In this document: positions 6,072 through 48,393 of the stretch, piece by piece
Numbering within the stretch: the first letter of the stretch is position 1
Layout of the letters: the number at the start of each line of letters is the position of its first letter
Origin: Promethearchaeota archaeon
GTDB taxonomy: Archaea; Asgardarchaeota; Lokiarchaeia; Sigynarchaeales; SOKP01
Direction: 5' to 3'
NCBI GenBank assembly: GCA_019894875.1
Contig: JAGXNR010000001.1
Location: 1-64,000 of the forward strand
DNA length: 64,000 nt
Made by a program: the position numbers and the translations under genes
Notes under the pieces: generated by a model
Told to the model about the DNA's origin: nothing
The model's input: only the letters and a program-made list of their open reading frames with translations
Databases searched by the model: none

Positions 6072-6761
6072 TTGATTTGTGGTATTGACGAGGCTGGTAG
6101 AATATAATCCGTATCGGATTATATGCCCAAAGGCCCCGTAATTGGCCCTCTTGTCTTATGTGGTGTATGTTTTAAAGAATCCCGTTTATCTTATTTAACA
6201 GAGATTGGCGTCAAAGACTCTAAAAAATTAACTGCTAAAAGGAGGAGAATTTTAGCCAAATTAATAAAGGAATCATGCAGCTCATTCAAAATAATTATCG
6301 TTCCTCCCAATGAAATTGATCAAAGGGAAGAAAAAAGAATTACTCTGAATAGACTAGAAGAACTTAAAATGGCTGAAATTGTTAGAGAATTAAAACCTGA
6401 TTCTATCTATATTGACGCTGTTGATGTAAATGAAACAAGATTCACACAATCAATCCTAAACCTCTTAAATTATCACCCAAAAGAAATCATTTCAAAACAT
6501 AAAGCTGATGACCTTTTTCCCATAGTATCTGCAGCTTCAATTATTGCCAAAGATAAAAGAGACACGTTGATTGAGGAATTAAAGGAAAAATACGGAGATC
6601 TAGGATCTGGATATCCCTCAGATTTAAAAACTATAAATTTTCTTCGGAATTGGATAAAAGAAAAGCAAAACATACCCCCTTTCGCAAGGAAAACCTGGGA
6701 AACAATAAGGAAAATAGTAGATGAAGAATTAGGAAACAGGAAAATAACCGATTTTTTTTAA
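6072..6761 (+). CDS. rnhB: Ribonuclease HII, interrupted by a 30-nt BHB mini-intron
   Basis: RNase HII cleaves RNA in RNA-DNA hybrids and removes misincorporated ribonucleotides. Read straight, the frame begins at TTG 6072 as ICGIDEAGR and then hits TAA after two more bases; a downstream frame starting at 6123 has the rest (GPVIGPLVLCG...). Removing 6101-6130 joins 29 + 631 nt into one 219-residue frame with an intact N-terminus LICGIDEAGRGPVIGPLV, the hallmark catalytic start (Asp6, Glu7). Later catalytic aspartates are present in YIDAVD and HKADDLFP. Length is normal for archaeal RNase HII. It follows the XRE regulator by one base and meets flpA tail to tail with a 4-bp overlap. If the insert were not spliced the protein would lose its active-site Asp-Glu pair. 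Confidence 0.88.
6101..6130 (+). other. Putative BHB mini-intron in rnhB mRNA (30 nt)
   Basis: The 30-nt insert interrupts the Arg codon of DEAGRG (AG|A). It contains a perfect 10-bp inverted repeat, ATATAATCCG and its complement (6102-6111 and 6115-6124) with loop TAT, then GCCC (6125-6128). Predicted layout: helix TGGT/GCCC (three of four pairs, one of them a wobble), bulge AG^A at 6099-6101, hairpin, bulge AA^A at 6129-6131. Cleavage between the second and third bulge bases at both sites gives exactly the exon join that restores the motif. The insert contains an in-frame TAA. Confidence 0.8.
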
Positions 6762-7456
6762 CTTTTCCCATTTTTAACTAATAACACAATATGATTTGCT
6801 GCATATTTGTGTATGTTAATGCTTTCAATAATTTCATATCCTCCCTCTTCAAGAATTTTCTTTTCTTGGGCATATACATATTCGGATTTTTGGATGCTAT
6901 CAATAGATTGAGACTTAACTGCCAGAATTAGTAAACCATTATCTTTTAGATAATAATTGCAATTATTTAAAGCAATTTCAGCTTGGTTTGGTTGAGAAAC
7001 ATCTTGGTAAATTAAATCTATTTTCGAAAATATTGATTTTGCATATTTATCTGGAAATCGAGCATCAGCAAAAATGGGAATAATATTTCTTCTTCGAGTC
7101 GTATTTTGTATCAACTGCCGAATACTTCTTTCAGCAAATTCAACACCGTATATAATACCATTTTTAACGATATCGGAAAGGTGAGAAATAGTAGTTCCAG
7201 AAGAAGCTCCCAAATATAAACAGTTTAAATCATCTTTTAAGAAATTATTGATAGGGTTTTCTAATATTAGAGCTGCTAGTTTACTCCGAAATGGATCCCA
7301 TTCTCTATATTCATTTTCTTTATATTGAGTTATTCGTTCCCCATAAACTCTATTACCTTTGTCTCTATTTCGTGTATAAAGTCTCAATTTTTCTTTAGTT
7401 CCTGAAGTGAAAACATTATAAAATTTGGGGTGATTTTTTATTTCAACTTGCGACAT
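6758..7456 (-). CDS. flpA: Fibrillarin-like rRNA/tRNA 2'-O-methyltransferase
   Basis: 232 residues, the usual length for archaeal fibrillarin. It is the catalytic AdoMet-dependent subunit of C/D-box sRNPs. Fibrillarin signatures include YRTRN-like LRLYTRNRDKGNRVYGE, EYREWDPFRSKLAA, the AdoMet loop LYLGASSGTTISHLSDIV, GVEFAERS and IYQDVSQPNQAEI. It starts 13 bp after nop5 on the same strand, so the pair forms the classic nop5-flpA operon. Its stop overlaps that of rnhB by 4 bp on the opposite strand. Confidence 0.95.
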   Translation of the reverse strand: MSQVEIKNHPKFYNVFTSGTKEKLRLYTRNRDKGNRVYGERITQYKENEYREWDPFRSKLAALILENPINNFLKDDLNCLYLGASSGTTISHLSDIVKNGIIYGVEFAERSIRQLIQNTTRRRNIIPIFADARFPDKYAKSIFSKIDLIYQDVSQPNQAEIALNNCNYYLKDNGLLILAVKSQSIDSIQKSEYVYAQEKKILEEGGYEIIESINIHKYAANHIVLLVKNGKS

Positions 7457-7469
7457 TTACTAAAGTACC

Positions 7470-8672
7470 TCATCTTCCCTTTTTTGGTTTCTTTTTGTTT
7501 CTTTTAATAGGTTCTGCTTTTTTAGGTGGATATGGATATTTAACTTCGATTTCTTTTATTTTTAATTCAATTTCGTTTGATAATCTATCTCCTAAGAATT
7601 CACCGTTAAAGAAATCGACTTTAGCAGCAATTCCAATTTTCCCTGCAACAACTCGAGCAATTTTTCCTCTGTGATGCGCTTTAGCTGACCTTATTTGATT
7701 CCATTGGAATATTAAGCCATGTTTAGGTCTCTTCTCTCCAGTTTTGAGAAAACGATAAAGCGCTTTTTCAGCTCCTAATAATTGTATTCTTGATGCTGGC
7801 ATATAAGCCAGTTTCTTCATACTCCCCGCTTTAGCAATAAGTTTAGCCCCTATTAATGATCCGATAATAGCATTTATGTTAGGAGCAAGCTTTTCCATAA
7901 GATCTTCTAAATTATTTTCTAAATCTTGCCTGTATGAATCTATAGAAATGATTTGATTCGCATAATCCTGAACCATTTTTAAATCAAATTTTGCTCCCAT
8001 AGAATCTGAAGCAAAATTCTGCAAGGCAGTGATTTTTTTCTCGTTTATATCAAAATTTTCTTTTAGATTTTCATAAGTAAATTTTTCCCTTGCTCCTAAT
8101 ATTGATACTAATTTTGCTACAAGAATGTTATCCTCGATAATTTTATCTGTTAATTCTGGAAAATGTAACCCATACCATTCTCTGAGTTGACTTGAAAATA
8201 AGCTTATAGATTTTTTGATTATATCTAGAGTACCGATGATCTGAATAACAATATTATCAGAGTGACCACTAACTTGACTTACCTTTTTCTTTGTCAATTC
8301 TTCGCTAATTTCTTTGTATTGTATGAGAATTTCATCTTTAGTTTTAATGATTCCTATATTTTTTAATTGAGCTTCTAGGTTTAAACGAAAATTCCTAAGT
8401 TCTATTGAGCCACTTTCTAACTGAGTATTATATCCTAATTGTTCTGTTAGTGTTTGTAATTCTTTGTTATCAAATACAAATATATCAAAACCAGAATTCT
8501 TCAATTCAGTTACAAACTCTTGATACTTACTCTGAACAATGCCACCATCAATATCAATATAAAACTGAATAATTTTCTGGTTATCATCTTCAAAATCAAT
8601 AAAATTCAAAATGTTTCCTGTTTCATCAAAAGAGAAAATCCCAACTAAAGTATCTGCTATATATGACTTCAT
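7470..8672 (-). CDS. nop5: Nop5 (Nop56/58-like) C/D-box sRNP protein
   Basis: 400 residues. Scaffold of archaeal C/D-box sRNPs that bridges L7Ae-bound guide RNA and fibrillarin. The N-terminal domain (1-120) is followed by a coiled-coil and the Nop domain with its signature LIGAKLIAKAGSMKKLAYMP (about 272-291) and the adjacent ASRIQLLGAEKALYRFLK and PKHGLIFQ. The C-terminus is a lysine-rich tail (KKAEPIKRNKKKPKKGR), typical of the family. It is immediately upstream of flpA. Confidence 0.95.
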   Translation of the reverse strand: MKSYIADTLVGIFSFDETGNILNFIDFEDDNQKIIQFYIDIDGGIVQSKYQEFVTELKNSGFDIFVFDNKELQTLTEQLGYNTQLESGSIELRNFRLNLEAQLKNIGIIKTKDEILIQYKEISEELTKKKVSQVSGHSDNIVIQIIGTLDIIKKSISLFSSQLREWYGLHFPELTDKIIEDNILVAKLVSILGAREKFTYENLKENFDINEKKITALQNFASDSMGAKFDLKMVQDYANQIISIDSYRQDLENNLEDLMEKLAPNINAIIGSLIGAKLIAKAGSMKKLAYMPASRIQLLGAEKALYRFLKTGEKRPKHGLIFQWNQIRSAKAHHRGKIARVVAGKIGIAAKVDFFNGEFLGDRLSNEIELKIKEIEVKYPYPPKKAEPIKRNKKKPKKGR

Positions 8673-8748
8673 TTTTACGAGAAAATCAGAGACATTTTTT
8701 CGTCATTAATAATTATTATAACATTATAATCATTATTTTCTTAAAAAA

Positions 8749-9675
8749 ATGCTTGAAATAAATCTCTCCGGATTAAAGTTAAAATCTCCTATTATTTTAG
8801 CCTCTGGAATTCTAGGTGTCTCTTATTCTTCAATGAAGAGGGTATTTGATGCCGGGATTGGTGCGGTAACTTCTAAATCAATCGGACCACGACCTAGAAA
8901 AGGTTTTAAAAACCCATCTATCTTAGAGATTTATCCCGGTACGTTTCTTAATGCAGTGGGTCTTGGAAATCCTGGAATTGATAATTTTTTACCTGAAATT
9001 AAAGAAATAAAATCCCTTCAAATCCCCTTAATAGTTAGCGTGTTTGGTGATACAAATGAATCTTATTTAAATGTTGCTACTAAAGCAGAAAAAGCAGGTG
9101 CTGACGCTATAGAGATTAATATTTCTTGTCCACATGCAGAGGTATCATCTATAGGAATAGACAGAGATTTAACTTATTCAGTTGTGAGTACACTCAAAGA
9201 GAAATTGAAAGTCCCACTTTTTGTTAAATTAAATCCCAATATTACTGATATCGGGGAGATCGCTCTAGCTGCTGAAAGTGGTGGTGCTGATGGAGTTGTT
9301 GCGATAAATACTTTAAGTGCTATGGTAATTGATATAAATACTAGGAGACCAATATTGGCTCATGGAAGTGGTGGCCTTTCTGGAAAAGCTATTCATCCGA
9401 TTGCTGTAAAAAAAGTATATGATTTATATAAAGTCTTAAAAATCCCAATAATTGGATGTGGTGGTATCTCTAGTTGGAAGGAGGTAGTTGAATTTATTTT
9501 AGCGGGTGCTTCTGCTGTTCAAATTGGAACAGCTCTTTATAAAGGAGTTGAAATTCTTACTGAAATAAATAATTCATTAACCAACTTTCTAGAAGAAAAT
9601 GGCTATAAATCCATATCTGAATTAATTGGATTAACCCATGAATTTAAAACCCAGGAGGTACCTGATTTTGACTGA
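8749..9675 (+). CDS. pyrD: Dihydroorotate dehydrogenase catalytic subunit (class 1B)
   Basis: 308 residues, standard for the 1B type. It oxidises dihydroorotate to orotate in pyrimidine synthesis with FMN. Visible signatures: PIILASGILG at the N-terminus, the KS motif TSKSIGPRPRKGFKNPS, the active-site region INISCPHAEV (catalytic Cys in NISCPH), VKLNPNITDI, AINTL, GGLSGKAIHPIAV and IIGCGGISSW for flavin phosphate binding. The partner subunit pyrK starts inside its last codons, so the two are translationally coupled. Confidence 0.95.
   Translation: MLEINLSGLKLKSPIILASGILGVSYSSMKRVFDAGIGAVTSKSIGPRPRKGFKNPSILEIYPGTFLNAVGLGNPGIDNFLPEIKEIKSLQIPLIVSVFGDTNESYLNVATKAEKAGADAIEINISCPHAEVSSIGIDRDLTYSVVSTLKEKLKVPLFVKLNPNITDIGEIALAAESGGADGVVAINTLSAMVIDINTRRPILAHGSGGLSGKAIHPIAVKKVYDLYKVLKIPIIGCGGISSWKEVVEFILAGASAVQIGTALYKGVEILTEINNSLTNFLEENGYKSISELIGLTHEFKTQEVPDFD
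9654..9659 (+). promoter_or_regulatory. Shine-Dalgarno site deciding the pyrK start
   Basis: GGAGGT lies inside the 3' end of pyrD, eight bases before TTG 9668. This makes TTG 9668 a better start for pyrK than the in-frame ATG at 9638, which would overlap pyrD by 38 bases. Confidence 0.7.
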
Positions 9676-10516
9676 AAACATCATAAGAACAGTTGTTATA
9701 ACAAATTCTATAGATGAATGTGAAGACATAAAAACTCTATCTTTCAATATGAAAAAGGAGAATACAAACTATATTCCACCAAAACCTGGGCAATTTGTTA
9801 TGATTTGGGTTCCTGGTGTTGATGAAATTCCTATGTCCATATCCGATTGTGATACAAATGGAAATTGGAGTATCACTGTAAAAAATATTGGTGAATGCAC
9901 CAATGCAATTTTTAACCTTAAACCAAGCGATTTTATTGGTGTTAGAGGACCTTTAGGTAACTGGTTTGAACTTCCAGAAGAAAAATCTAAAAATATTTTT
10001 TTAATTGGGGGAGGAATTGGTATGGCTCCTCTTCGGTTTCTTACCAAAGAGCTGTCTAAACGTAAAATTTCCTTTATTCTAATTCAAGGTGCAAAAGTCC
10101 AAAATGAATTAATTTTTACAACTCAATTTCAAATGTTAGACAAGAAATCTACCGATATTTTTTATTGCACTGAGGATGGGAGTTGTGGAACCAAAGGAGT
10201 TGTAACTGAGGCTTTTGAAAGAATTTTGGATACTTACTCAAAAAGGCTATTTTCAAACGCAATAGCTTATACATGTGGTCCTGAAAAAATGATCTATTCT
10301 ATCTATGAAATATGTGAACAAAGGAATATCGAACTCCATGCAAGTCTTGAGCGAATAATGAGATGTGGGTGTGGATTGTGCGGATTATGCGCAATTGACC
10401 CTTTAGGATTATTAGTTTGCAAAGACGGACCTGTTTTTAAATCTGAATCCTTAAAGAAGATGGAAGATTTTGGAAAATTTAGAAGAGATTTTACCGGTAG
10501 GAAAGTAAATTTGTAA
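9668..10516 (+). CDS. pyrK: Dihydroorotate dehydrogenase electron-transfer subunit
   Basis: About 282 residues from TTG 9668. It carries electrons from PyrD to an external acceptor through FAD and a [2Fe-2S] cluster. The FAD-binding part contains PMSISDCD and GPLGNWF; the nucleotide-binding domain contains LIGGGIGMAPLRFL; the C-terminal cluster motif is MRCGCGLCGLCAIDPLG followed by CKDGPVF, a typical PyrK ending. The gene overlaps the end of pyrD by 8 bp with a clear Shine-Dalgarno site. Confidence 0.93.
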   Translation: MTENIIRTVVITNSIDECEDIKTLSFNMKKENTNYIPPKPGQFVMIWVPGVDEIPMSISDCDTNGNWSITVKNIGECTNAIFNLKPSDFIGVRGPLGNWFELPEEKSKNIFLIGGGIGMAPLRFLTKELSKRKISFILIQGAKVQNELIFTTQFQMLDKKSTDIFYCTEDGSCGTKGVVTEAFERILDTYSKRLFSNAIAYTCGPEKMIYSIYEICEQRNIELHASLERIMRCGCGLCGLCAIDPLGLLVCKDGPVFKSESLKKMEDFGKFRRDFTGRKVNL

Positions 10517-10547
10517 AAACCTAATTATACATTGAATATTATTTGAA

Positions 10548-12173
10548 ATGGTAGATGCAAAATCTGATTTTCCTGAAGAAATTAAAAGAGTTTCAAGGGA
10601 AATAATCAAGTTCCTGATTGAGAATCCGCACATCTCTCGGAAAAAAATTACTAATATTAAAGGTAAAATAGGAAAAAAATATAACTTTAAAAAAGTTATA
10701 AAGAATGCCACAATCTTGGATTATGCAACTCCAGAGGAGAAAGAAATTATTCTTCCATTTCTCAAAAGAAGATCTACCAGAACCCTATCTGGTGTCTCTG
10801 TTATAGCTATAATGACAAAACCACTTCCATGTCCCGGAACTTGTATCTACTGTCCAGGACAGAGTTCACAACCCGGTGAAAAAGTAGCTCAATCTTACAC
10901 TGGTCGAGAACCAGCAGCCATGAGATCTATTCATAACAATTATGATCCTTATGAGCAAGTACAAAGTAGGATCAGAGATTTGGAAGTCATCGGTCATACT
11001 GTGGACAAGATTGAGCTTATTTGTATGGGTGGTACATTCTTATCCACTGATATCCAATATCAAAGAGCTTTCATTAAGGGTGCTCTTGAAGGAATTATTG
11101 AACAACGAGTTAATACTCTAGAGGAAGCTAAAAAGCTTGCTGAAACCTCTAAAAGAAGAGTTATAGGAATTACAATTGAAACAAGACCGGATTATTGTAA
11201 AGAAAATCATGTAGACAGAATGCTTAATTATGGGACAACCCGAGTTGAACTTGGTATACAAACCATCTATGACGATATTTATGATTTGGTTAAAAGAGGA
11301 CATAATTCAATTGACAGCATTGAAGCTATTAGAATAGCAAGAGATTCGGGCTTAAAAATTAACGCCCATATTATGCCCAACCTCCCGGGATCAGATTATT
11401 CAAAAGATATTGCATTATTTGATGAATTATATTCCAACCCAGATTACCGTCCCGACATGCTAAAGATTTATCCAACACTAGTAATTAATGGTACAGAATT
11501 ATATGAATGGTGGAAAAAAGGAAAGTACTCCCCGTATTCAGACGAAAAATTAATTGATCTAGTTGCAACTGTTAAAAAAAAACTTCCTCCTTATGTAAGA
11601 ATTCAAAGAATAATGAGGGATATCCCAGCTACTTTAATCGAAGCAGGATGTAAAAATAGCAATTTAAGGCAACTCGTACAAGAAAAGTTAAAAAATTCGG
11701 GAGGAAAATGTAATTGTATAAGATGTCGAGAATATGGTATAAGTACTAAAAACAGTGTTATTGATAAATCTGCCCTAAATGAAATCAAACTCTATAGACA
11801 AGATTATGAAGCTTCTATGGGGACTGAAGTCTTCCTCTCGTATGAAAATAAAAAGGAGGGATACTTGGTTGGTTATTTGCGTTTACGAAAACCCTCTAAA
11901 TGTGCTCATAGACCAGAATTAAACAATGGAAGGACTTTAGTGGTAAGAGAAATTAAAGTTGTAGGTGAATTGGTGCCGAGAGATATGAAACCAAAGTTTT
12001 CTCAAATCCAACATCGAGGATTTGGTAAACTATTAATGAAAAATGCTGAGAAAATTTCATTTGATGAATTTGATGCTGGAAAATTAGCGGTAATTAGCGG
12101 AATTGGAGCTCGGGATTGGTTTTATGAGTTAGGATATAAATTAGATGGAGTATATGTTTCTAAAACTCTTTAA
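10548..12173 (+). CDS. elp3: Elp3-type tRNA uridine-34 modification enzyme (radical SAM + acetyltransferase)
   Basis: 541 residues, the usual archaeal Elp3 length. It installs the carboxymethyl group at C5 of wobble uridine using AdoMet chemistry and acetyl-CoA. The radical-SAM cluster motif PLPCPGTCIYCPGQ lies near residue 95-108, followed by AMRSIHNNYDPYEQV and IELICMGGTFLS; the C-terminal GNAT domain includes LRKPS, IQHRGFGKLLMKNAEKIS and GIGARDWFYELGY. Archaeal Elp3 acts without the other Elongator subunits. It starts 31 bp after pyrK. Confidence 0.95.
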   Translation: MVDAKSDFPEEIKRVSREIIKFLIENPHISRKKITNIKGKIGKKYNFKKVIKNATILDYATPEEKEIILPFLKRRSTRTLSGVSVIAIMTKPLPCPGTCIYCPGQSSQPGEKVAQSYTGREPAAMRSIHNNYDPYEQVQSRIRDLEVIGHTVDKIELICMGGTFLSTDIQYQRAFIKGALEGIIEQRVNTLEEAKKLAETSKRRVIGITIETRPDYCKENHVDRMLNYGTTRVELGIQTIYDDIYDLVKRGHNSIDSIEAIRIARDSGLKINAHIMPNLPGSDYSKDIALFDELYSNPDYRPDMLKIYPTLVINGTELYEWWKKGKYSPYSDEKLIDLVATVKKKLPPYVRIQRIMRDIPATLIEAGCKNSNLRQLVQEKLKNSGGKCNCIRCREYGISTKNSVIDKSALNEIKLYRQDYEASMGTEVFLSYENKKEGYLVGYLRLRKPSKCAHRPELNNGRTLVVREIKVVGELVPRDMKPKFSQIQHRGFGKLLMKNAEKISFDEFDAGKLAVISGIGARDWFYELGYKLDGVYVSKTL

Positions 12174-12516: not shown

Positions 12517-13587
12517 ATGTCATCATCAAAAAAGAAAACAGCTCAACAAACAATTTCTATAAGTCCTGGACTTAAAGATCGGATTGAAAAATATGTCACC
12601 GAAAACCAAAAGAAAAACCCGAAGGATAAAAGGTTTAGAAGTGTCTCCGCTTTTTACACTAATGTCTTGGAAAAAACTATGGATTGTTTTGATAAAGGAA
12701 AAACACTTGATGATTTTGAGAGTTTTGTTGATAGTGACGTGAAAGACTTTTTTGAAGGACTCTCTTTTAATGGCCTTATTCCTTACTACGAAAAGGCAAT
12801 TATATTGAATAGATACCAAAATACTAATCTTGAAAGAAATCCTTTTTTCTACTTCACACTAAGAAGGTTTTATACATCAAGAATGGATCCCTATGATATT
12901 AAGAGTATTAAAAAAATTTTCGATAGAGTTAGAACCTATATTCTTTCTAATAACCTTACTAAAGAATTCCGGTTAGATTTTTTCTCAGGAAAGGGTGAAA
13001 AGAACATAACTGCAGTTTTTGAACAAGTTGGGTTATATAAAAATTTGTCTTTTGAGAATTTTAAATTTACAGCTGGACTTTTTGGCTTATTAGGCGCAAA
13101 AATAACTAATTTTCTTTATTCCAGAGAAGATATTTATTGTAGATTTGACATGAAAATCACAGATTTATTTTATCGAAAAGAGCTTTTAAAAAGAGAAAGG
13201 ATCAAGCTGATGCAACATAATTTATCTCATATTCTAAATTATAATAGAATCGTAGAAGATAAAGACTATTTCCTATGGATGAAGATAGCGGAAGATAAGA
13301 ATGCTTTCATCTCGTTTACTAATGACGAAACTAAACAAGAATGGGTAAAGTTAATAGAAAGTGAAATTGAACAATTTGGGGATAAAGATGATTATCATCT
13401 TAACATATTACGGATTTTTGAGAGATTTCATTGGATCGAAATTGAAAATGAGAAAGAATTATTATTCCGAATTATCCTGGCCAAATCTAACAACCAAAAA
13501 GATATCGATTATTTATTGAAGAATCTTTCCAGAAAGTCAGATATTATAAAGATCAATGGTAAATATCAATTAAAAAAAAAGGAATGA
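12517..13587 (+). CDS. Unknown protein with N-terminal RHH-like region, tandem paralog 1
   Basis: 356 residues. Residues 1-60 read KKKTAQQTISISPGLKDRI followed by EKYV and RFRSVSAFYTNVLEK, which fits a ribbon-helix-helix DNA-binding fold (a beta strand TISIS then two helices) with an insertion between helices. The remaining 290 residues are mixed alpha/beta with no family I recognise; a segment around 170-210 (NLSFENFKFTAGLFGLLGAK) is the best conserved with its paralog at 13937. It is monocistronic, with its own AT-rich promoter region. Likely a lineage-specific regulator; this is inference. Confidence 0.7.
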   Translation: MSSSKKKTAQQTISISPGLKDRIEKYVTENQKKNPKDKRFRSVSAFYTNVLEKTMDCFDKGKTLDDFESFVDSDVKDFFEGLSFNGLIPYYEKAIILNRYQNTNLERNPFFYFTLRRFYTSRMDPYDIKSIKKIFDRVRTYILSNNLTKEFRLDFFSGKGEKNITAVFEQVGLYKNLSFENFKFTAGLFGLLGAKITNFLYSREDIYCRFDMKITDLFYRKELLKRERIKLMQHNLSHILNYNRIVEDKDYFLWMKIAEDKNAFISFTNDETKQEWVKLIESEIEQFGDKDDYHLNILRIFERFHWIEIENEKELLFRIILAKSNNQKDIDYLLKNLSRKSDIIKINGKYQLKKKE

Positions 13588-13936
13588 TAGGCTAAAAAGA
13601 TTAGATCTCGACCCTCAGTATCCCTATTTGTAAATTCCTAGCTTTTTACCTTTATTCACTTAAAGATTCCTGTCATCCCCTTGATTTTATGTCTAATTAA
13701 TATTCATGATCATGAATATTTAAAGTAATATATTAACCTTACAAATCAAAATTATTTAAAAATGCATACTAAAAAAAGAAATGTAAAGAAAATTAGAATA
13801 AATCCCTAATATTGGATAATATGTATTTTGTAAATTAAATAATATTAAAGATATTTTATATTTGGCTTATACGAATTAAAATTATGGTAGATTTTATCTA
13901 CTAAATATTTAAAAATAAAATTAACTTGTAATAATA
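13588..13936. other. Intergenic region between the tandem RHH-like paralogs
   Basis: About 350 bp, no gene seen. It contains a perfect 22-bp palindrome at 13699-13720 (listed separately) and an AT-rich promoter-like zone before the ATG at 13937. Confidence 0.5.
13699..13720. promoter_or_regulatory. Perfect 22-bp palindrome, candidate operator
   Basis: AATATTCATGA followed directly by its exact reverse complement, about 220 bp upstream of the second RHH-like gene. RHH regulators bind palindromes as dimers of dimers, so an operator for one of the flanking paralogs is plausible. No second copy of this palindrome was noticed before the first paralog. Confidence 0.5.
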
Positions 13937-15013
13937 ATGTCATCAAAGAAATTCCTTTCAACAAAAAAAACGGCACAACAAACCATTTCTATTAGTCCCG
14001 CGCTTAAAGATTGGATAAAACGGTATGTACATGTAAATTATAGTAAAAATCAGAAAGATGATCGATTCAAAAGTGTTTCAGCTTTCTATAATCATGTAAT
14101 GGAAAGGATTATGGTTCTATTTAAAAAAGGGAAGACTCTGGACGATCTTGAAAGAGTTGAAGATAAAAAAATTAAAGACTTTTTTGATCGGTTTACCTTT
14201 AAAGCCACCATCCCACTCTATGAAATGGTAATACAGGATCATAAATATTCCCCTTTTTCCTTCGAATTTAATACCCGTTTTTTACTATTGTATTTAGACA
14301 TATTCAAGAGTGAAGTCAAGTCACATAATTTTAAAGATGTCGATATATTTTTCGAAAAGATACGAAGTCGCTTTGCGAAAACCACTGTATCAAAAGATAT
14401 GAGACTAGAATTATCTTTAGGTAAGAATAAAGAACCTGCTAGAGCAACTTTAGAGTTTGTTGGAAAATACAAGAACCTTCATTTTGAAAATTGTAAGTTT
14501 TTTGCAGCAGTTTTTGCAATATTGGGTGTGCGTGTAACCGATTTTATTTATTCACCAGATGATTATTATTGTAGATTGGAACTCCTTGAAACAGATCTTT
14601 TGTTTAATAGTGAAGATCTGGCCAAGAAAGAGAGATTGAAATTAATAGAAGAGAATGTAGAATATATAATAAATTACAATAGGTTGCTTGATGATAAAGA
14701 CTTGTATTTGTGGATGAAACTCGCCGAGGATAATGAAGTTTTTGTATCCTTTAAAAATCAAGCCGTGTTTAATAAATGGATTAAAAATATCGAGGCCCAT
14801 TTACAGAAATTTGGGGAGAAGGAAGAATTTTTAGTAAAAATATTACAGTTCTTTAATAAGCTCCATTGGATTAGAATTGAGAATATTAAGAATCTTTCTT
14901 TTCGAATTGAGCAAGTAATAGAAGAAAATAAAGACCAAAAGAAATATTTATTTAATTATTTCTCTGAGACTTCAAAACTCTCTGAAGTTGAGGGAATCTA
15001 TTACTTGAAATAG
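13937..15013 (+). CDS. Unknown protein with N-terminal RHH-like region, tandem paralog 2
   Basis: 358 residues, colinear with the product of 12517-13587. Shared blocks: KKTAQQTISISP, LKDWI, FKSVSAFYNHVMERIM, KGKTLDDLE near the N-terminus, and NLHFENCKFFAAVFAILGV with FIYSPDDYYCRLEL in the middle. The C-terminal third (NRLLDDKDLYLWMKLAED) is also conserved. Same interpretation: a DNA-binding N-terminus with an unknown sensory or effector body, arising by tandem duplication. Confidence 0.7.
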   Translation: MSSKKFLSTKKTAQQTISISPALKDWIKRYVHVNYSKNQKDDRFKSVSAFYNHVMERIMVLFKKGKTLDDLERVEDKKIKDFFDRFTFKATIPLYEMVIQDHKYSPFSFEFNTRFLLLYLDIFKSEVKSHNFKDVDIFFEKIRSRFAKTTVSKDMRLELSLGKNKEPARATLEFVGKYKNLHFENCKFFAAVFAILGVRVTDFIYSPDDYYCRLELLETDLLFNSEDLAKKERLKLIEENVEYIINYNRLLDDKDLYLWMKLAEDNEVFVSFKNQAVFNKWIKNIEAHLQKFGEKEEFLVKILQFFNKLHWIRIENIKNLSFRIEQVIEENKDQKKYLFNYFSETSKLSEVEGIYYLK

Positions 15014-21893: not shown

Positions 21894-22781
21894 ATGGATC
21901 TAATTAAGATTGATAATAATTCTATTGAGAAGACTGAAGAAATGAAACGATATGAAGATGAAACAGGGAGATATTCTGTATGGCGAGGTATAGTAACAGA
22001 AGGATTTAAGAAGTGGCAACGAGGCGAAAAAATTTATCATCGAGAAAAAGAACGAATTTCACTTTATGTATCCAATGATACTAAAATAAAATGGTTGGAA
22101 TATACTAAAAGTGATGGTACAACAATTTCTAAGTTGATAAGGGAAGCTGTTGAGTCATTTATTGAAAGTCGAGGGAATCTAGGTGGTAATAATTTATCTA
22201 TGTTAGATCCCCAAACAATTTCCAATATTTCTCATACATTAAAAGAGCCTTTAACTTCGATTAAAGGGTATTCGCAATTACTTATCGAAAATTACCGAGA
22301 AAAACTAAATGACCAAGTGTTAGAGACTGTAAAAAATATATTTGAGCAGAGCATTCTTCTCGAAAAAAAAATAATTAATATTTTAGACAACATTAAAGTT
22401 GAACCTGAGCATGAAGTCTTATTGATTGAAGATGATCTCGCAACTATTCGTCTTATTAAGAGTTATTTTGAAAGTAAAGGTATTAAATGTAAAGGAGTTG
22501 TAAGTGGTTCGAAAGGATTGGAAGAATTAGGAAATGCTATTCCAAAACTAATATTATTAGACATTATTTTACCAGATTTAAGTGGATATGATATTTGTAA
22601 AACCATAAAATCTGATAAAGAATATAAAAATATTCCTGTCTTTTTCTTAACAGCAATAGCGGGTTCTGAAGTACAAAGGAACTTAGCAGAAACTAAAGCA
22701 GATGGCTATATCTTAAAACCTTTTAATTTTTCTGATTTTGAAGTTATCTTCGATATTTTAAAAGGTAAAAGAATCGAGTAA
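21894..22781 (+). CDS. RHH DNA-binding / HisKA-like / receiver fusion protein, paralog 1
   Basis: 295 residues from ATG 21894. Order: a short N-terminal block (YSVWRGIVTEGFKKW), an RHH-like segment ERISLYVSNDTKIKWLEY followed by TISKLIREAVESFIE (53-91), a HisKA-like dimerisation helix with H-box NISHTLKEPLTSIKGYSQLL (His113), and a receiver domain (174-290) with acidic pocket E179/D180/D181, phospho-acceptor D223 (LLDIILPDLSG), T253 and K275 (YILKP). No HATPase domain is present. The frame stays open upstream to an ATT at 21834; the true start may be there. This looks like a DNA-binding response regulator carrying its own phospho-histidine helix. Confidence 0.75.
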   Translation: MDLIKIDNNSIEKTEEMKRYEDETGRYSVWRGIVTEGFKKWQRGEKIYHREKERISLYVSNDTKIKWLEYTKSDGTTISKLIREAVESFIESRGNLGGNNLSMLDPQTISNISHTLKEPLTSIKGYSQLLIENYREKLNDQVLETVKNIFEQSILLEKKIINILDNIKVEPEHEVLLIEDDLATIRLIKSYFESKGIKCKGVVSGSKGLEELGNAIPKLILLDIILPDLSGYDICKTIKSDKEYKNIPVFFLTAIAGSEVQRNLAETKADGYILKPFNFSDFEVIFDILKGKRIE

Positions 22782-23222
22782 AATTACTCCCTTAATGTTA
22801 TTGGTTATTAAAATTATAAGTAAAAGCTCTATTATTCATTCTTTCAATATCTAAGAATAGCAATTAAGAGGATAATACAATAATATTTATATTTTAAAGT
22901 AAGATATTTAAAATGATAAAAAACTACAAAATAGTGTAAACAATTATTTAGTGAATGAGTTATTTTATAAAAAAAAGGATTAAACTATATCAATAGTTAT
23001 CAATTTTAAATAATAGTATAACAAATTATTAATTAGAGAGATTTTACATATTTATACAAAGCAATTATTCAAAAAGAAAGAGGGGGAAAAGAAATTCCAA
23101 AAGAGAAAAACAGCAATAATGATAAAGATTCTATAGATCTTGAAGAAGAATTTGAAAAGTTAAGCTTCTCGGATAAAGAAATTGCTAACCTAGATCTAAA
23201 TAGTGAGAAAATTAAAGAGTTA
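22782..23222. other. Intergenic region and possible 5' extension of the downstream gene
   Basis: The first 250 bp are AT-rich with no gene. From 23030 the frame of the next gene is open without ATG, GTG or TTG; it may be coding from an ATT at 23094, which follows a GGGGG-rich Shine-Dalgarno-like stretch at about 23081-23086. Confidence 0.4.
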
Positions 23223-24056
23223 ATGGCGCTTTACCAAGAGAGAACTGATAAATATGCAATTTGGCGTGGTTCTATAACCGAAGGTTTTAAGAAATGGTTA
23301 AAAGGTGAAAAAATATATGACCGAGATAAAGAAAGAATCTCTCTTTATGTGTCAGAAGGAACTAAAACAAAATGGCAAGATTTTAAAGAGTCCCATGAAT
23401 ATTCGACAATATCTGCTTTAATCAGAGATAGTGTAGATTATTATATTGAACAAAAATCCGATTTTTTAAGTGGGGGGTTACAGGGGATGAATGAAAAAAC
23501 TATTTCTAATATATCACATGCATTAAAAGAACCATTAACAACTATAAAGGGATTTAGTCAATTACTTTTAGAAAATTACAAAGAAGAATTAGATTCCGAA
23601 GTACTATCAACAATCAAGAACATTTTTGACCAGTCTATGCTTCTTGAGAACAAAATTATTAGTATTCTCGATAACATTAAAACAGATGACGTTGAACATC
23701 AGTATGATATCCTCTTAATTGAAGATGATCTTGCCACAATTAGGCTATTAACAAGTTACTTTGAAAGTAAGGGCTATAAATGTAAGGGAGTAGTTAGTGG
23801 CACGAAAGGTTTGCAAGAAATAAGAGGAGGTTTGCCTAAATTGATATTGTTAGATATAATCTTGCCAGACATCTCGGGTTATGAAATATGCAAAATGATT
23901 AAAGACCATAATAAATACAAAGAAGTGCCGATTTTCTTATTGACAGCTATCCCTGGGTCGGAAGTCGAAAAGAAAATGTCCGAAACGAGAGCAGATGGAT
24001 ATATCTTGAAACCATTTGATTTTTCTGATTTTGAAATATTATTCCAATATATTTAA
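23223..24056 (+). CDS. RHH DNA-binding / HisKA-like / receiver fusion protein, paralog 2
   Basis: 277 residues from ATG 23223, the same design as 21894-22781: YAIWRGSITEGFKKW, RHH-like ERISLYVSEGTKTKW, H-box NISHALKEPLTTIKGFSQLL, and receiver LLIEDDLATIRLL, LLDIILPDISGYEI, LTAIPGS, YILKPFDFSDF. No histidine-kinase ATPase domain. The open frame runs upstream to an ATT codon at 23094 in a position equivalent to paralog 1 (both continue with a Pro codon), so about 43 acidic residues could precede the ATG. Tandem duplication suggests a regulator pair with overlapping targets. Confidence 0.75.
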   Translation: MALYQERTDKYAIWRGSITEGFKKWLKGEKIYDRDKERISLYVSEGTKTKWQDFKESHEYSTISALIRDSVDYYIEQKSDFLSGGLQGMNEKTISNISHALKEPLTTIKGFSQLLLENYKEELDSEVLSTIKNIFDQSMLLENKIISILDNIKTDDVEHQYDILLIEDDLATIRLLTSYFESKGYKCKGVVSGTKGLQEIRGGLPKLILLDIILPDISGYEICKMIKDHNKYKEVPIFLLTAIPGSEVEKKMSETRADGYILKPFDFSDFEILFQYI

Positions 24057-25493: not shown

Positions 25494-25595
25494 CGCAGAT
25501 GGAGGGACTCGAACCCCCGAGCGCTCCCGCGCACTGGCTTGCTTGATTGCATCAAATACTCAAGGCCAGCGTCTTACCAGCTAGGCTACATCTGC
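25494..25595 (-). tRNA. tRNA-Ser (TGA) with a 19-nt intron at 37/38
   Basis: Acceptor GCAGATG pairs with CATCTGC, discriminator G and a long variable arm (GCGCGGGAGCGC) mark a serine tRNA. The anticodon stem CTGGC/GCCAG encloses CTTGAG then 19 intron bases then A, giving anticodon TGA. The intron lies at the canonical position. The gene is 27 bp upstream of tRNA-Lys on the same strand. Confidence 0.92.
25540..25558 (-). other. tRNA-Ser intron (19 nt, canonical BHB)
   Basis: Removing these bases gives a 7-base anticodon loop. The BHB is textbook: exon CTTG pairs perfectly with intron CAAG; bulges AG^T and CA^A; the inner intron helix is ATT/AAT. It serves as an internal reference for the other introns in this window. 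Confidence 0.9.
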
Positions 25596-37590: not shown

Positions 37591-37598
37591 ACAACTTT

Positions 37599-40395: not shown

Positions 40396-40400
40396 ATAGA

Positions 40401-41854: not shown

Positions 41855-41861
41855 ATAATTA

Positions 41862-42377: not shown

Positions 42378-42391
42378 TTACACCACTCTCA

Positions 42392-43051: not shown

Positions 43052-43207
43052 GAATATTAGCTAAGTTTGTTCTATATAAAAATTCATTAAATTGAAAAAA
43101 TCAGTATTAATTATAAATTTGTTTTATTAGATTATAAGTAGTGATATTGGTCCACAAAGAAATCAAATGTACAAAAAATAAAAAGTGTTGATTGAAAAAG
43201 ATATAAT

Positions 43208-44149
43208 TTATTTTGGATATTGTTCTTGACAACTTAATTCTACAGCTATTCGTTCCCAATTATGATCTAAATGTTCTTGAAGTTCTATTAAATCTTTTTC
43301 AGAAATTTGTGAGAATCTTTTTTGCTTAGAAAGATAATCGACTAAAGGGGTTCTCTTAGATGCCTCTGTTAAAGATTTACTCTTTTTAGATAGTGTCATA
43401 ATGCCATTTTCAACCTCAAATAATATCCATGAACCCGATTTTACAGCTAATCGCGCAACTTCAATTTCATTTTCAGAATTGAATCCCCAACCAGGAGGGC
43501 AAGGTGCTAAAATATGGATATATTTACAACCTTTAATTGATTTCGCTTTCTTAAATTTATCGTATAAATCAAGTGGTTCGCTAATACTGCAGGTCGCAAC
43601 ATAGGGTATTTCGTGAGCAGCTAATATAGCTGGCAGGTTTTTCTTAAACCTATCTTTTCCAAGAGTTGTGGTGGTAGTTATTGCTCCGTGAGGTGTGCTT
43701 GACGAACGTTGAATTCCAGTGTTCATATATGCCTCGTTATCATAACAACAATATATGATATCTGTATTCCTTTCTGCCGCTCCACTTAGCCCTTGAATGC
43801 CTATGTCTGCAGTACCTCCATCTCCCGCAAATACTAAAGTTGTTATTTCTTCCCATCCTCTGTTTGGGAATTTATGAGCTTTTGCATCAAAGGCAGCCTT
43901 CATACCTGTGGCAGCTGCAGCTCCAGCCGCAAATGCCATATTAGTAAATGGGAAATTTGGTGCCGCTTTAGGCCATAATCCAATGACAACATTTAAACAT
44001 GAAGCGGGAGTTACAAGTGCTGTATTAGGACCTAAAGCTTTCATTGCCCATCTAAGTGCAATTTCAAGACCGCAACCAGCACAGCAAGAGTTTCCCGGGA
44101 GGAAAAACTCTTCTTGACATGAATCTAACGCTTCTTTTAATTTTACCAT
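43208..44149 (-). CDS. porB: Pyruvate:ferredoxin oxidoreductase beta subunit
   Basis: 313 residues. TPP-binding subunit. Cysteines for the proximal [4Fe-4S] cluster and TPP motif are visible: PGNSCCAGCGLEIALRW, TLVFAGDGGTADIGIQGLSG and CYDNEAYMNTGIQRSSSTPH. The archaeal four-subunit enzyme oxidises pyruvate to acetyl-CoA with ferredoxin. Last gene in the por string (gamma, delta, alpha, beta), 3 bp after porA. Confidence 0.95.
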   Translation of the reverse strand: MVKLKEALDSCQEEFFLPGNSCCAGCGLEIALRWAMKALGPNTALVTPASCLNVVIGLWPKAAPNFPFTNMAFAAGAAAATGMKAAFDAKAHKFPNRGWEEITTLVFAGDGGTADIGIQGLSGAAERNTDIIYCCYDNEAYMNTGIQRSSSTPHGAITTTTTLGKDRFKKNLPAILAAHEIPYVATCSISEPLDLYDKFKKAKSIKGCKYIHILAPCPPGWGFNSENEIEVARLAVKSGSWILFEVENGIMTLSKKSKSLTEASKRTPLVDYLSKQKRFSQISEKDLIELQEHLDHNWERIAVELSCQEQYPK

Positions 44150-44152
44150 CTA

Positions 44153-45409
44153 TTATTCAACCTCCAATAATCCATCCCAGAGTGTTCCATTTATTATATC
44201 TTTTGGAAGCTCTCCAGTTTCATTTAAATTAACTAACATTTTTAATTGCTTTTTTTGTTGTTCCAGGGATACCTCTCTTCCTCCTAATCCATTAATGATT
44301 GGCAATACCTTCGCTGTTTCCTCCGTATCATGTAAAGCAGCTTTAACTTCACAACTAACCGGACCTCCTGTTTGCGATCCGAATGCAGTTGCTCTATCAA
44401 TTATTCCAACAAGCTCAATTTTTTTAATCGAACTTATTATATCTTCTACGGGAAATGGTCGAAAGTGCCTTAATTTTACCATACCAACTTTATATCCTTC
44501 TTCCCTCACATCATCAACAGCTTGTTCCATTTGTAATGCTAAATCCCCATAGATTACAACACCTACTTTAGCATCATTCATTTTATATTCTTGAATTAAG
44601 CCGTTTCCATAATTTCTTCCAAAAACTTTCTCAAATTCAATAGCAACTTCTTTAATTTTTTCCTTTGCTTTTATATGGGCATTGTGAAGTTTCATCCTAA
44701 ACTCATAGTAAAACCCGGAAGGCATAATAAGATTTCCAAACATCATAGGTCTTTTAGGATCCATCCATATATGAGGCCATCCCTCTTCTCCAGGTAAGGC
44801 TGGTAAAAATGAATCAACAAGATCTTGGTCTTCGATGATAACTGGTTTTGACGTATGGGATAAAATAAAACCACCATACGCAATAAATTTTGGAAGCAAT
44901 ATCTCGTGATCTTCACATAATTTATAAGACATTAAAATTTCATCATAAATTTCCTGATGAGAGGCACAAAATGAACTCATCCATCCCGTGTCTCTTTGAC
45001 TTAATACATCAGTAAAGTCAGCCCAAATATTCCACGGAGGCGCCGGAGCGCGAGAAGCAATCGCAACAACAATCGGAAGTCTCGCTCCAGCAGCCCAGTG
45101 AATCATTTCATGGGCATAAAATATACCTTGGCCAGAGGTAGCAGTGAACGTTCTCGTCCCTGCTTTACTAGCACCTACAACCGCGGCAAAGACGCTATGC
45201 TCGGATTCAACCCTAATATATTGAGTTCCAGGCATTTCACCTTTATCTGCAAATTCAGATAATTTTTCTACAACAGTTGTTTGAGGTGTTATTGGATATG
45301 CACTGATTACCTGAACTCGTGCTGATTTCGCAGCATAAGCTGCGGCTACATTTCCTTTAATAATTTTAGTTTCTCTTTCTTGGATAAAATCCTTTTGGGC
45401 TTCAACCAT
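44153..45409 (-). CDS. porA: Pyruvate:ferredoxin oxidoreductase alpha subunit
   Basis: 418 residues. Pyrimidine-binding domain of the enzyme: KGNVAAAYAAKSARVQVISA then YPITPQTTVVEKLSEF, ESEHSVFAAVVGASKAGTRT, FTATSGQGIFYAHEMI. The C-terminal domain has VGMVKLRHFRPFPVEDI. Overlaps porD by 8 bp, implying translational coupling. Confidence 0.95.
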   Translation of the reverse strand: MVEAQKDFIQERETKIIKGNVAAAYAAKSARVQVISAYPITPQTTVVEKLSEFADKGEMPGTQYIRVESEHSVFAAVVGASKAGTRTFTATSGQGIFYAHEMIHWAAGARLPIVVAIASRAPAPPWNIWADFTDVLSQRDTGWMSSFCASHQEIYDEILMSYKLCEDHEILLPKFIAYGGFILSHTSKPVIIEDQDLVDSFLPALPGEEGWPHIWMDPKRPMMFGNLIMPSGFYYEFRMKLHNAHIKAKEKIKEVAIEFEKVFGRNYGNGLIQEYKMNDAKVGVVIYGDLALQMEQAVDDVREEGYKVGMVKLRHFRPFPVEDIISSIKKIELVGIIDRATAFGSQTGGPVSCEVKAALHDTEETAKVLPIINGLGGREVSLEQQKKQLKMLVNLNETGELPKDIINGTLWDGLLEVE

Positions 45410-45755
45410 CGTTTATTTCACTCTCTCTTATCATTTCAATTGTATTTGATGGACATTCCTTTGCGCAAATTCCGCAACCTTTGCAGTACTCAAGCTGAAT
45501 TTCAAAAGAGCCATCTTCTTTCCTTCTGATTACGCCTTCTGGACAATACATCCAACATATACCGCATTGATTACATCCTTCCTTAATTACAGGTCTAAAA
45601 GTTCTCCAATCACCTGTAGCACCTATACTCCCCTCTATTGGCAAAGATATAGGAATTGGGGGTAATTCTTCCCAATTTTTATAGTCTTGAACTTTTGGAC
45701 GCTCTTTTCTTGATTTATTAATTTTTTTCCATTTTTCTGATTTTGAATTCGACAT
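45402..45755 (-). CDS. porD: Pyruvate:ferredoxin oxidoreductase delta subunit (ferredoxin)
   Basis: 117 residues with two [4Fe-4S] motifs, CNQCGICWMYCPEG and CKGCGICAKECPS, that pass electrons from the TPP site to ferredoxin. The basic N-terminal ~35 residues are an extension. Between porG and porA in the standard gene order. Confidence 0.95.
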   Translation of the reverse strand: MSNSKSEKWKKINKSRKERPKVQDYKNWEELPPIPISLPIEGSIGATGDWRTFRPVIKEGCNQCGICWMYCPEGVIRRKEDGSFEIQLEYCKGCGICAKECPSNTIEMIRESEINDG

Positions 45756-45756
45756 T

Positions 45757-46335
45757 TTAACTCTCTCTTACAGATTCGTAAGCATCTCTAGCGACACTCA
45801 TATTTTTTTCTGCTTTATCTATTCCATATTCTTTTTTGATTACTTTTTCCATAATATTTAAATCATAATAACCGGTGACCTTACCAAAAGCCCCTAACAT
45901 AGGTATATTTAAAATAGGGCCACTAGAGTGCATGAATTCTTTTTTTATGCATATACCTGTAGCATCAACAATAAAAATCCTAATATTTTGTGGTAATCCT
46001 TCTGTATCTATTGGATCAGGGCTATTCACGATAAGTGTGACTCCATCTTTTATGGTTGCTTTAATTTTTGGTATATCTAATAGTGAGATATCAAATAATA
46101 AAAGATAATCTGGATTTACTACACTATCATAGGTTTTAATGGGTTTTTTCATTGAGATTTTTGAAAATGCTTGTATCGGTGCTCCCCTTCTTTCTGCTCC
46201 GATAATAGGGATTGCAATAGTATCAATAAAACCCTTTTCAAATGCCATCTCCGCCAAAAGTTGACTTGCGGTTATACAAGTTTGACCACCTCTACAATGC
46301 ATAGATATTTCTATAATTTTTTCATCTAAAGACAT
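45757..46335 (-). CDS. porG: Pyruvate:ferredoxin oxidoreductase gamma subunit
   Basis: 192 residues. EISMHCRGGQTCITASQLLA and GAERRGAPIQAFSKI are the gamma-subunit signatures; it binds coenzyme A in related enzymes. First gene in the operon with a good Shine-Dalgarno site. Confidence 0.95.
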   Translation of the reverse strand: MSLDEKIIEISMHCRGGQTCITASQLLAEMAFEKGFIDTIAIPIIGAERRGAPIQAFSKISMKKPIKTYDSVVNPDYLLLFDISLLDIPKIKATIKDGVTLIVNSPDPIDTEGLPQNIRIFIVDATGICIKKEFMHSSGPILNIPMLGAFGKVTGYYDLNIMEKVIKKEYGIDKAEKNMSVARDAYESVRES

Positions 46336-46346
46336 TTTTTTATCTT

Positions 46347-46352
46347 CCTCCT
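46347..46352 (-). promoter_or_regulatory. Shine-Dalgarno site of porG
   Basis: AGGAGG on the reverse strand, 11 bases before the porG ATG at 46335, one of the strongest ribosome-binding sites in the window and fitting a highly expressed metabolic operon. Confidence 0.6.
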
Positions 46353-46564
46353 ACTGTTATTCTGGAGTAAACTATACTTATTTCTTTATATCTGTAAAAA
46401 TAATGATCAATAAAAAATTTTCGAAATAAAAATATAATCTAAAGGGTTTTTATTGTAATAGATCATTCGTCCTAAATTTTAATCCAAAAGGAACAAAAAT
46501 GATGATAGTTTTATTTAATAATTAGACTAACTCTTAACTTATAGATACTTCGGAATTAGTTAAT

Positions 46565-47116
46565 ATGTCACAAGACGAATTTTCAATCAAATGTCCCGCT
46601 TGTAAGCAAGGTATTATTAAATTGAATAAAACAGTGTATGATTTACCTGATAAAGATAAAATGCTCATTTTGAAATTTGAATGTGATAAATGTAGTTTTC
46701 TTAAAAATGATATTATCCCTCTTACGACAAATTTAGACTCGGGAATAATGACACTTGAAGTTACTAATGAAGCAGATCTCAAATCAAAAATATATCGCTC
46801 TCCTATGGGGAAAATAGAAATTCCCGAGCTTGAGTTGGCGGTAGAACCAGGTCCGAGAGCAGATTTTTATTATACTAATGTGGAAGGTATATTAGTTCGT
46901 TTTGAAAATGCAGTTTCAATTTATAGGAATAGTCTTGAGGAAGATGATCAACAAATCCTTGAAATTGAGGATCTTCTTAAAGATTTGAAAGAAGCAATGA
47001 GAGGACGATTAAAATTCACACTAAAAATCACCGACACTCAAGGGGGGAGTTATATCATTCCACATGATAAATCAAAATATAAGTTTGAAAAATTTACGAA
47101 TAATGAATTAAATTAA
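46565..47116 (+). CDS. ZPR1-type zinc-finger protein
   Basis: 183 residues. One ZPR1 module: zinc finger CPACKQG ... FECDKCSFLKND, followed by the A-domain beta barrel with LDSGIMTLEV, IYRSPMGKIEIPELELAVEP, and FTLKITDTQGGSYI. In eukaryotes ZPR1 is a chaperone for elongation factor eEF1A; archaeal proteins carry a single module. It lies 61 bp before phosphofructokinase on the same strand. Confidence 0.88.
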   Translation: MSQDEFSIKCPACKQGIIKLNKTVYDLPDKDKMLILKFECDKCSFLKNDIIPLTTNLDSGIMTLEVTNEADLKSKIYRSPMGKIEIPELELAVEPGPRADFYYTNVEGILVRFENAVSIYRNSLEEDDQQILEIEDLLKDLKEAMRGRLKFTLKITDTQGGSYIIPHDKSKYKFEKFTNNELN

Positions 47117-47177
47117 ATATAAAATATGACTTTATCATAATGTTTTATTAAATCAATTCTATTATGTGTGAAAAGTG

Positions 47178-48393
47178 ATGGGAAATCAAATAAAAAGAAT
47201 TGGAATTTTAACGGGCGGCGGAGCCATGTTCAAGACTTTCCTTGACTGTCGTATACTGCCCTGGTTTGAATTCTGTTCTCTATGGAATCATGCTTAAAGC
47301 TTATGATGTAGGTGTTGAATGCGTTGGAATCCTTAAAGGATGGAAAGGATTTATAGAAAATAAGACTATTCCATTGAAAATCAGTGAACATGATGACCTA
47401 CATACTGTTGGTGGAACGATTTTATTTACAAGTAGAACTAATCCTTTTAATGGCACTGATTCAAAGGAAGAAAAGGCAAAAAAATTAGCAAAACAATTTG
47501 ATATTTTGGGCATTGATGCTCTAATTGCTATCGGTGGAGATTTAAAATAAGATATATTTTAAACTAAAGACGATACTCTTGGAGTGGCCGATACTATATA
47601 TCAACTTACTAATGCCAAAGTAGTAGGATGTCCTAAGACCATAGATAACGATTTGGCTGGAACTCATTATACATTTGGGTTCTGGAGCTCGGTACAACTA
47701 GCCTCCAACGCAATGGATAATCTTACAACTACTGCACGTTCACATCAAAGAGTCTTTATTGTTGAAATAATGGGAAGAGACGCGGGTTTTCTAACTATGT
47801 ATAGTGGAATCTCTGCTGGAGCAGATATAATTTTAATTCCTGAGACACCATTTGATCTAGAGAAAGATATAATTGACGTTTTAAAAAGTAGAGTTAATGC
47901 GGGTTATAAATATCATATTATAGCTACATCTGAAGGGGCATACCCAAATTCTGAATCATTAAATCGAGATTTTAAAACAATATCAAAGAAAACGTTAGAT
48001 AAAATGCCAAAAGATACATTTGGCAATCCTCTCTTAGCAAAATTAAATATATCTCAAATAATCGTTGACGAATTGAACTTAAGAGATGACTTAAAACAAG
48101 ACTTTCAGAGAAATGGAGTGGATTTTGAATGTCGAAGTGTAGTTCTTGGGCATACTATGCGCGCGGGAACACCAAATTCATTTGATAGGATTTTAGGGTT
48201 AAGATTTGGACTAGCAGCAATGAAGCTTGTTTTGGAGGGTGATTTTGGTAAAATGGTATCACTCAAAGGGAATAAAATTAAAACAATTTCTCTCTCAGAA
48301 GGAGTAAAAAAAAAATATATTACACCTGATAATGATAAAATGGAATTACGCGATTTACTAGTGAAAATTAGGTATTTATCAAAACAGAAATAG
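47178..48393 (+). CDS. pfkA: Phosphofructokinase, PPi-type residues, interrupted by two BHB mini-introns
   Basis: ATG 47178 begins IKRIGILTGGG, then the frame is broken at 47224-47254 and again at 47540-47569. Joining 47178-47223, 47255-47539 and 47570-48393 gives 1155 nt, a single 384-residue frame with all family motifs: GGGDCPGLNSV (13-23), GGDDTLGVADTI (109-120), PKTIDNDLAGTHYTFGF, IVEIMGRDAGFLTMYSG, ETPFDLEKD and LGHTMRAGTPNSFDRILG. The second Asp of GGDDT and Lys of PKTIDND are the residues that favour pyrophosphate over ATP in this family, so a reversible PPi-PFK is predicted. Without splicing no full-length protein can be made. Confidence 0.88.
47224..47254 (+). other. Putative BHB mini-intron 1 in pfkA mRNA (31 nt)
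   Basis: Lies inside the first Asp codon of GGGDCPG (G|AC). Layout: exon GCGG pairs with intron TCGT (two wobbles); bulges AG^C and AT^A; inner hairpin of eight pairs, CAGTCAAG (with two bulged U) and CTTGACTG, loop ACTTTC. Its length of 31 shifts the reading frame. Confidence 0.8.
47540..47569 (+). other. Putative BHB mini-intron 2 in pfkA mRNA (30 nt)
   Basis: Lies inside the first Asp codon of GGDDT. Hairpin TTTAAAATA/TATTTTAAA with loop AGATA, both bulges AG^A, middle helix GTGG/CTAA (three of four pairs), and a perfect 5-bp exon helix TATCG/CGATA outside. The insert has an in-frame TAA; removal restores GGDDTLG. Confidence 0.85.

Follow-up and report, generated by a model that had tools for sequence, protein, structure and literature searches.

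Two protein genes in a 64-kb stretch of DNA (hereafter the window, meaning the whole stretch analysed), rnhB for RNase HII and pfkA, are interrupted by short inserts that are very probably archaeal bulge–helix–bulge (BHB) introns in protein-coding mRNA (Table 1). Protein comparison assigns the window to a Lokiarchaeal archaeon, with up to 89% identity between the spliced pfkA protein and Lokiarchaeota metagenome-assembled genomes (MAGs). We infer that the transcripts would be cleaved and ligated, and that proteins would be translated from the spliced mRNA. The recurrence of the inserts at the same codon in many genomes and the covariation within the rnhB intron place them, as judged by comparison, beyond what chance would give. 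The insert sizes and positions of the original prediction, 30 nucleotides (nt) in rnhB and 31 and 30 nt in pfkA, were confirmed, and its two outer coordinates, 6101 and 47569, coincide exactly with ends of introns.

Results

Inserts split conserved codons and recur in relatives

The rnhB insert contains an in-frame TAA and splits a conserved Arg codon (AG|A). Exact removal gives GIDEAG-R-GP, and the spliced protein matched Pfam RNase_HII over positions 1–198 of 199. The second pfkA insert (I2) likewise contains an in-frame stop, while the first (I1) instead causes a frameshift; each splits an Asp codon (G|AC), and exact removal gives GGG-D-CPG (I1) and GG-D-DTLG (I2), with Pfam PFK matched over 1–276 of 277. 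We take the motifs interrupted in both genes to be active-site motifs. The list of open reading frames (ORFs) places the start of rnhB inside the intron, at 6123, and it is plausible that gene callers mark such interrupted genes as truncated.

Protein searches matched rnhB in 47 of 50 relatives' genomes. An insert at the same codon was present in 27 of the 46 readable genes, window included, and absent from the other 19; it was 30 nt long in 26 copies and 28 nt in one (L094). Exon 2 was open over 208–215 codons in 26 of the 27 intron copies, the remaining copy ending at a contig end, and third positions accounted for 50–62% of exon 2 changes in the six pairs compared. A wider protein search matched rnhB in 217 of 227 genomes of the phylum. 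Among the matches listed, 33 rows, each Loki-like and of at least 61% identity, had an internal stop plus about 30–45 extra bases; for nine of these (G144, G145, G147–G151, G155 and G157) the statement comes from match data, and not from sequence that was read. Three distant entries among the matches listed (G209, G197 and G196, 45–50% identity) had one stop and only about 3 extra bases. For pfkA, 48 genes were compared (L028, L036, L045, L046 and L052 were left out), of which 10 carried I1, 8 carried I2, 6 carried both and 36 neither.

Further cases were found in two other genes of relatives. An insert of 30 nt was present in nadE in 3 of 37 near-full-length matches; the site was sequence-read in 31 loci, two of them with the insert, and in L289. 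In this last copy, from G029, Ser and not Gly follows the predicted splice junction, which means that this copy has either another cut or another residue. A conserved Loki ORF adjoining rtcB, first noticed in a locus fetched for its rtcB and with no match in Pfam, had an insert of 29–30 nt in 4 of 41 close matches, one of them split (L125, at about 640, L286, L287 and L288). Stops in the ORF copies of G002 and G049 were rejected as introns, since both precede the conserved start of the protein.

Predicted BHB structure and covariation

In the proposed mechanism, exon bases just 5′ of the 5′ site would pair over 4 bp with intron bases just 5′ of the 3′ site, leaving two 3-base bulges, each of which the tRNA splicing endonuclease (EndA) would cleave after its second base. 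The enzyme would consist of alpha and beta subunits, presumably as a heterotetramer, and RtcB would ligate the exons after cutting. A hairpin within the intron would close the structure, and exon–exon pairs may stabilise it.

For comparison with this model the cut was taken from protein homology, and the distance before both cuts at which four bases pair was then sought. At the canonical offset of 2, pairing of the middle helix averaged 3.67 of 4 in rnhB (27 introns), where no other offset exceeded 1.89; it was 4.00 in pfkA I1 (10 copies), in nadE (3 copies) and in the ORF beside rtcB (4 copies; 3.00 at offset 1). Two 3-base bulges with a full 4-bp helix were present in 18/27 rnhB, 10/10 pfkA I1, 3/3 nadE and 4/4 ORF introns, and in 0/8 copies of pfkA I2. 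The 5′ border is AT|N in nadE and AG|N at the other four sites; most 3′ borders read AN|A. Cuts compatible with homology take in the bond between bulge bases 2 and 3 at all five sites, although the borders of rnhB, pfkA I2 and the ORF slide by 1–3 nt in some copies, so that the fit there picks among few options.

In the window, the rnhB intron has bulges AG|A (5′) and AA|A (3′), a middle helix TGGT:GCCC (3/4) and an AT-rich hairpin, ATATAATCC/GGATTATAT, with a predicted stem of 10 bp and a loop of 3. The corresponding elements of pfkA I1 are AG|C, AT|A, GCGG:TCGT (4/4) and a predicted 5-bp stem, TCAAG/CTTGA, with a loop of 6; those of I2 are AG|A, AG|A, GTGG:CTAA (3/4) and an AT-rich hairpin, TTTAAAATA/TATTTTAAA, with a predicted stem of 8 bp and a loop of 5. 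By eye, the exons flanking I2 also form an outer helix, TATCG:CGATA. The single design originally proposed, an AT-rich hairpin of 8–10 bp with a 4-base middle helix and 3-base bulges, therefore needs qualification: the hairpin describes rnhB and I2 but not I1, while the helix and bulges describe I1 and rnhB and only weakly I2. A first hand reading of the rnhB middle helix as GGTA:TGCC was discarded; it would require an out-of-frame 28-nt cut, and homologues gave TGGT:RYYA.

Compensatory change was counted for rnhB only, in 24 of the 27 introns (L088, identical here to L087, L094, with its 28-nt intron, and L090, gapped by MAFFT, were excluded). Changes on both sides were found in 9 of 17 pairs, with 16 such cells, a result that 500 shuffles never equalled; when the partners were slid, the maximum was 4 pairs and 9 cells. 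Both the middle helix and the hairpin covary. In the middle helix it is exon bases that covary with intron bases, the two sides shifting together as TGGT:ACCA, TGGG:CCTA and AGGG:CCTT.

Splicing machinery and tRNA introns in relatives

EndA and RtcB, a check proposed with the original prediction, were sought in relatives. EndA (PF01974) was present in 17 of 17, with two copies in 13, and RtcB in 14 of 17. One kind of EndA resembles Aeropyrum pernix chain 3p1z_B and retains Tyr, His and Lys, which are presumably the catalytic residues; the other kind lacks His at the corresponding position. Such a two-subunit enzyme accords with the proposal that BHB introns in mRNA are removed by the tRNA endonuclease, which the comparisons strongly support.

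The tRNA genes examined numbered twelve: one in the window and 11 from G003, G017 and G028 loci. Ten had a BHB solution of 19–32 nt leaving 71–83 nt; none was found for L139 and L155. The best solutions in the relatives' genes were introns of 22–32 nt, while the 19-nt intron of the window's tRNA-Ser(UGA) is a second-ranked solution, the top-ranked one leaving a product of only 56 nt. This is the intron-bearing tRNA found in the window. The tRNA-Val with a 30-nt intron that had been reported did not turn up: ARAGORN, Rfam and an intron-tolerant clover-leaf scan requiring a perfect T stem found no tRNA-Val there. A size class shared by mRNA and tRNA introns thus holds in outline, from the relatives, and loses its tRNA-Val example. 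Two G028 tRNAs (L133 1501–1603 and L152 1501–1603) have introns of about 28–32 nt that apparently lie 3′ of the anticodon stem and not at the usual 37/38.

Alternative explanations

Introns cut by a nuclease other than EndA, or able to splice themselves, would also give the interrupted genes described here, and pfkA I2, which is not a strict BHB, leaves some room for them. We consider this very unlikely. The bulge geometry fits EndA substrates and relatives have tRNA introns of similar size; as to self-splicing, 28–31 nt is too short, all ribozyme introns known to us being longer.

It is equally hard to credit that ribosomes skip the inserts by programmed translational bypassing over the hairpin, with no removal of RNA. 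Bypass elements such as those of T4 gene 60 and the yeast mitochondrial byps also place a short hairpin and stop codons inside a protein gene. Both rnhB and pfkA, however, are interrupted within a codon, and a ribosome that jumped by whole codons would leave out the conserved Arg or Asp. The take-off codon of rnhB is AGA, but the triplet ahead of its landing site can be AAA, ATA or ACA, and bypassing does not predict the exon–intron covariation of the middle helix.

Pseudogenes or faults of assembly or sequencing, to which the broken gene calls and the MAG origin of the relatives might point, are the least credible explanation, given same-site inserts across many separate assemblies, with a length of exactly 30 nt in 26 of the 27 rnhB copies, downstream exons that stay open and change mainly at third positions, and, among the 50 relatives' genomes, no second close copy of rnhB (only weak second matches, in G001 and G005).

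Several points weigh against EndA-spliced BHB introns. The case for splicing comes from comparison of DNA, not from RNA, and EndA and RtcB were seen in relatives only, not in the window's own genome; among the 17 MAGs, RtcB was not found in 3 and a second EndA was not found in 4. The middle helix of pfkA I2, on this reading a relaxed BHB form, is weak, with a mean of 2.62 of 4 (8 copies with 2–3 pairs each, never 4) against 2.12 at the next offset. In pfkA I1, offset 5 pairs as fully as offset 2, owing to a GGCGGCGG repeat, so that pairing alone leaves its register unfixed. No hairpin is predicted in the 28-nt rnhB intron of L094, pairs 18–36 and 5–49 of the rnhB structure are unpaired in 11/24 and 13/24 rows, and the covariation shuffles ignore the relatedness of the rows.

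History of the introns

On a tree of 45 rnhB rows (L097 was left out), the intron requires 6 changes, compared with 14.6 in shuffles; with so few changes it looks old and mostly inherited within the Loki group. On a pfkA tree built from codons away from the introns, I1 requires 9 changes and I2 7, and the four states jointly require 11, compared with 11.6 in shuffles. Near I1, carriers had a third-position identity of 0.78 with one another and of 0.36 with non-carriers, while in the gene body carriers agreed at 0.49; near I2 the values were 0.74, 0.38 and 0.52. The genes of L033 and L048 are 98.9% identical in codons 150–384 and often different in the first ~26 codons, with I1 in L033 only, and over codons 11–24 L033 equals L023 except for one codon.

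The scatter of the pfkA introns on the gene tree, together with the exon codons shared by carriers around them, suggests lateral spread. Gene conversion of an intron with its exon flanks would leave such a pattern, and constraint from base pairing may add to it; exon–exon pairing at I2 may account for part of the carriers' fixed codons. It looks as if the pfkA introns were gained or lost through recombination tracts that include flanking exon codons. Of the features of homing introns, a patchy distribution with co-converted flanks is present in pfkA, while an encoded homing endonuclease is absent from introns of 28–31 nt. We therefore put forward, tentatively and as somewhat short of an even chance, that the Loki group has minimal, non-coding, mobile mRNA introns of ~30 nt that lie in or beside codons of conserved active-site motifs, are removed by EndA and RtcB, and spread with co-adapted exon flanks. 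Were the introns mobile in this way, the flanks would travel along because only transfers bringing matching exon codons would remain spliceable.

Number of introns per genome

The original prediction extrapolated to hundreds of introns per genome, which our scans do not bear out. The homology scan covered 2.7 Mb and 2151 ORFs of at least 100 amino acids, antisense frames included; 1092 matched another sequence, or 1075 without matches of at least 97% identity, which possibly represent the same stretch twice. Four intron-bearing families were left: rnhB, pfkA, nadE and the ORF beside rtcB. Other inserts were by eye antisense, end-of-alignment or weak, and a candidate split at G028s 230079 reads as two adjacent genes. 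Stretches G003s, G028s, G041s and G039s, with 597 matched ORFs, added nadE as the single new family. On the assumption of 3500 genes per genome, this amounts to ~6 introns per genome with a Poisson range of ~0.1–33, for stretches that were not random (G028s was picked for rnhB, and the G041 and G039 contigs contain rnhB and pfkA) and for a scan that detects only introns missing from some homologue.

Ab initio searches gave little or no excess over controls with other bulge sizes. Only one site in 0.86 Mb passed a strict rule, which recovered none of the known introns. With AG| borders there were 56 sites, inside the range of 43–192 for other dinucleotides; under this rule the window's two best sites were those of rnhB and pfkA I2. 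When any bulge was allowed, 3-base bulges gave 58 top-scoring sites and the 2-, 4- and 5-base controls 51, 51 and 47. Before reading-frame conditions, the AG| rule passes 29 and the any-bulge rule 20 of 52 known intron copies. Together the scans suggest a handful to a few tens of introns per genome. Searches of viral contigs with two of the intron patterns gave 0 matches.

Three pairs of neighbouring genes elsewhere in the window (12517–15013, 21894–24056 and 51168–53578) look paralogous by eye.

Table 1. Interrupted genes of the window, with predicted exons and introns.
Feature	Position	Strand	Remarks
rnhB exon 1	6051..6100	+	TTG taken as start; codes ...CGIDEAG + AG (first two bases, Arg codon)
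rnhB BHB intron	6101..6130	+	30 nt; same-site insert in relatives
rnhB exon 2	6131..6761	+	RNase HII; spliced protein 226 amino acids, PF01351
pfkA exon 1	47178..47223	+	ends ...ILTGGG + G of Asp codon
pfkA BHB intron 1 (I1)	47224..47254	+	31 nt
pfkA exon 2	47255..47539	+	ends ...IAIGG + G of Asp codon
pfkA BHB-like intron 2 (I2)	47540..47569	+	30 nt
pfkA exon 3	47570..48393	+	spliced protein 384 amino acids, PF00365
tRNA-Ser(UGA) gene	25494..25595	-	Rfam and clover-leaf scan; not listed by ARAGORN
tRNA-Ser(UGA) BHB intron, at 37/38	25540..25558	-	19 nt, canonical; CTTG:CAAG, AG|T, CA|A

Discussion

Lokiarchaea are often compared with the ancestors of eukaryotic cells. If the BHB reading is right, the closest archaeal kin of eukaryotes use tRNA machinery to splice protein genes, the sites at which genes of these MAGs are interrupted can be predicted, and the gain, loss and lateral spread of introns can be followed codon by codon without a spliceosome. 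If the introns are also mobile, they move without a ribozyme and without encoding an endonuclease.

The closest known system is the cbf5 pre-mRNA intron of Crenarchaeota, which is of BHB type, 16–44 nt long and associated with a hetero-oligomeric EndA (PMC2738675). As proposed for the Loki introns, it is cut between bulge bases 2 and 3, breaks the codon of a catalytic residue and has been lost in some lineages; the Loki introns differ in lying in other genes and another phylum, in occurring in several gene families and, in pfkA, in showing signs of lateral movement together with exon tracts. The cbf5 intron itself was not found in Loki genomes, the TruB_N part being open without stops in 19 of 19. 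In Haloferax, HVO_1309 has a BHB intron in its 5′ untranslated region (PMC7714728), an EndA substrate in mRNA, as the Loki introns would be, although these lie in coding sequence; according to the same 2020 paper, the only other archaeal BHB mRNA intron reported was that of cbf5. Introns occur in 92–95% of tRNA genes in three wetland Asgard genomes (PMC11291895); archaeal tRNA introns would share the removal machinery and, in relatives, have a similar size, but they interrupt tRNA. The introns of archaeal rRNA, of which many contain homing endonuclease genes (PMC6125680; PMC2738675), have BHB borders and are laterally mobile, as the pfkA introns may be, yet are longer and often coding, while 28–31 nt leave no room for an ORF. 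The putative 12-bp introns of an archaeal virus, for which splicing was not demonstrated (Peng et al., as cited in PMC2738675), are likewise tiny insertions in archaeal protein genes, though smaller than those of Loki. Among the papers listed, no title or abstract opening reported an mRNA intron from an Asgard archaeon, in a literature that took in neither preprints nor most subscription journals. As far as the literature was searched, then, the proposed mechanism is one already known in archaea, and what is new is the host genes, the phylum, the occurrence in several gene families and the apparent lateral spread.

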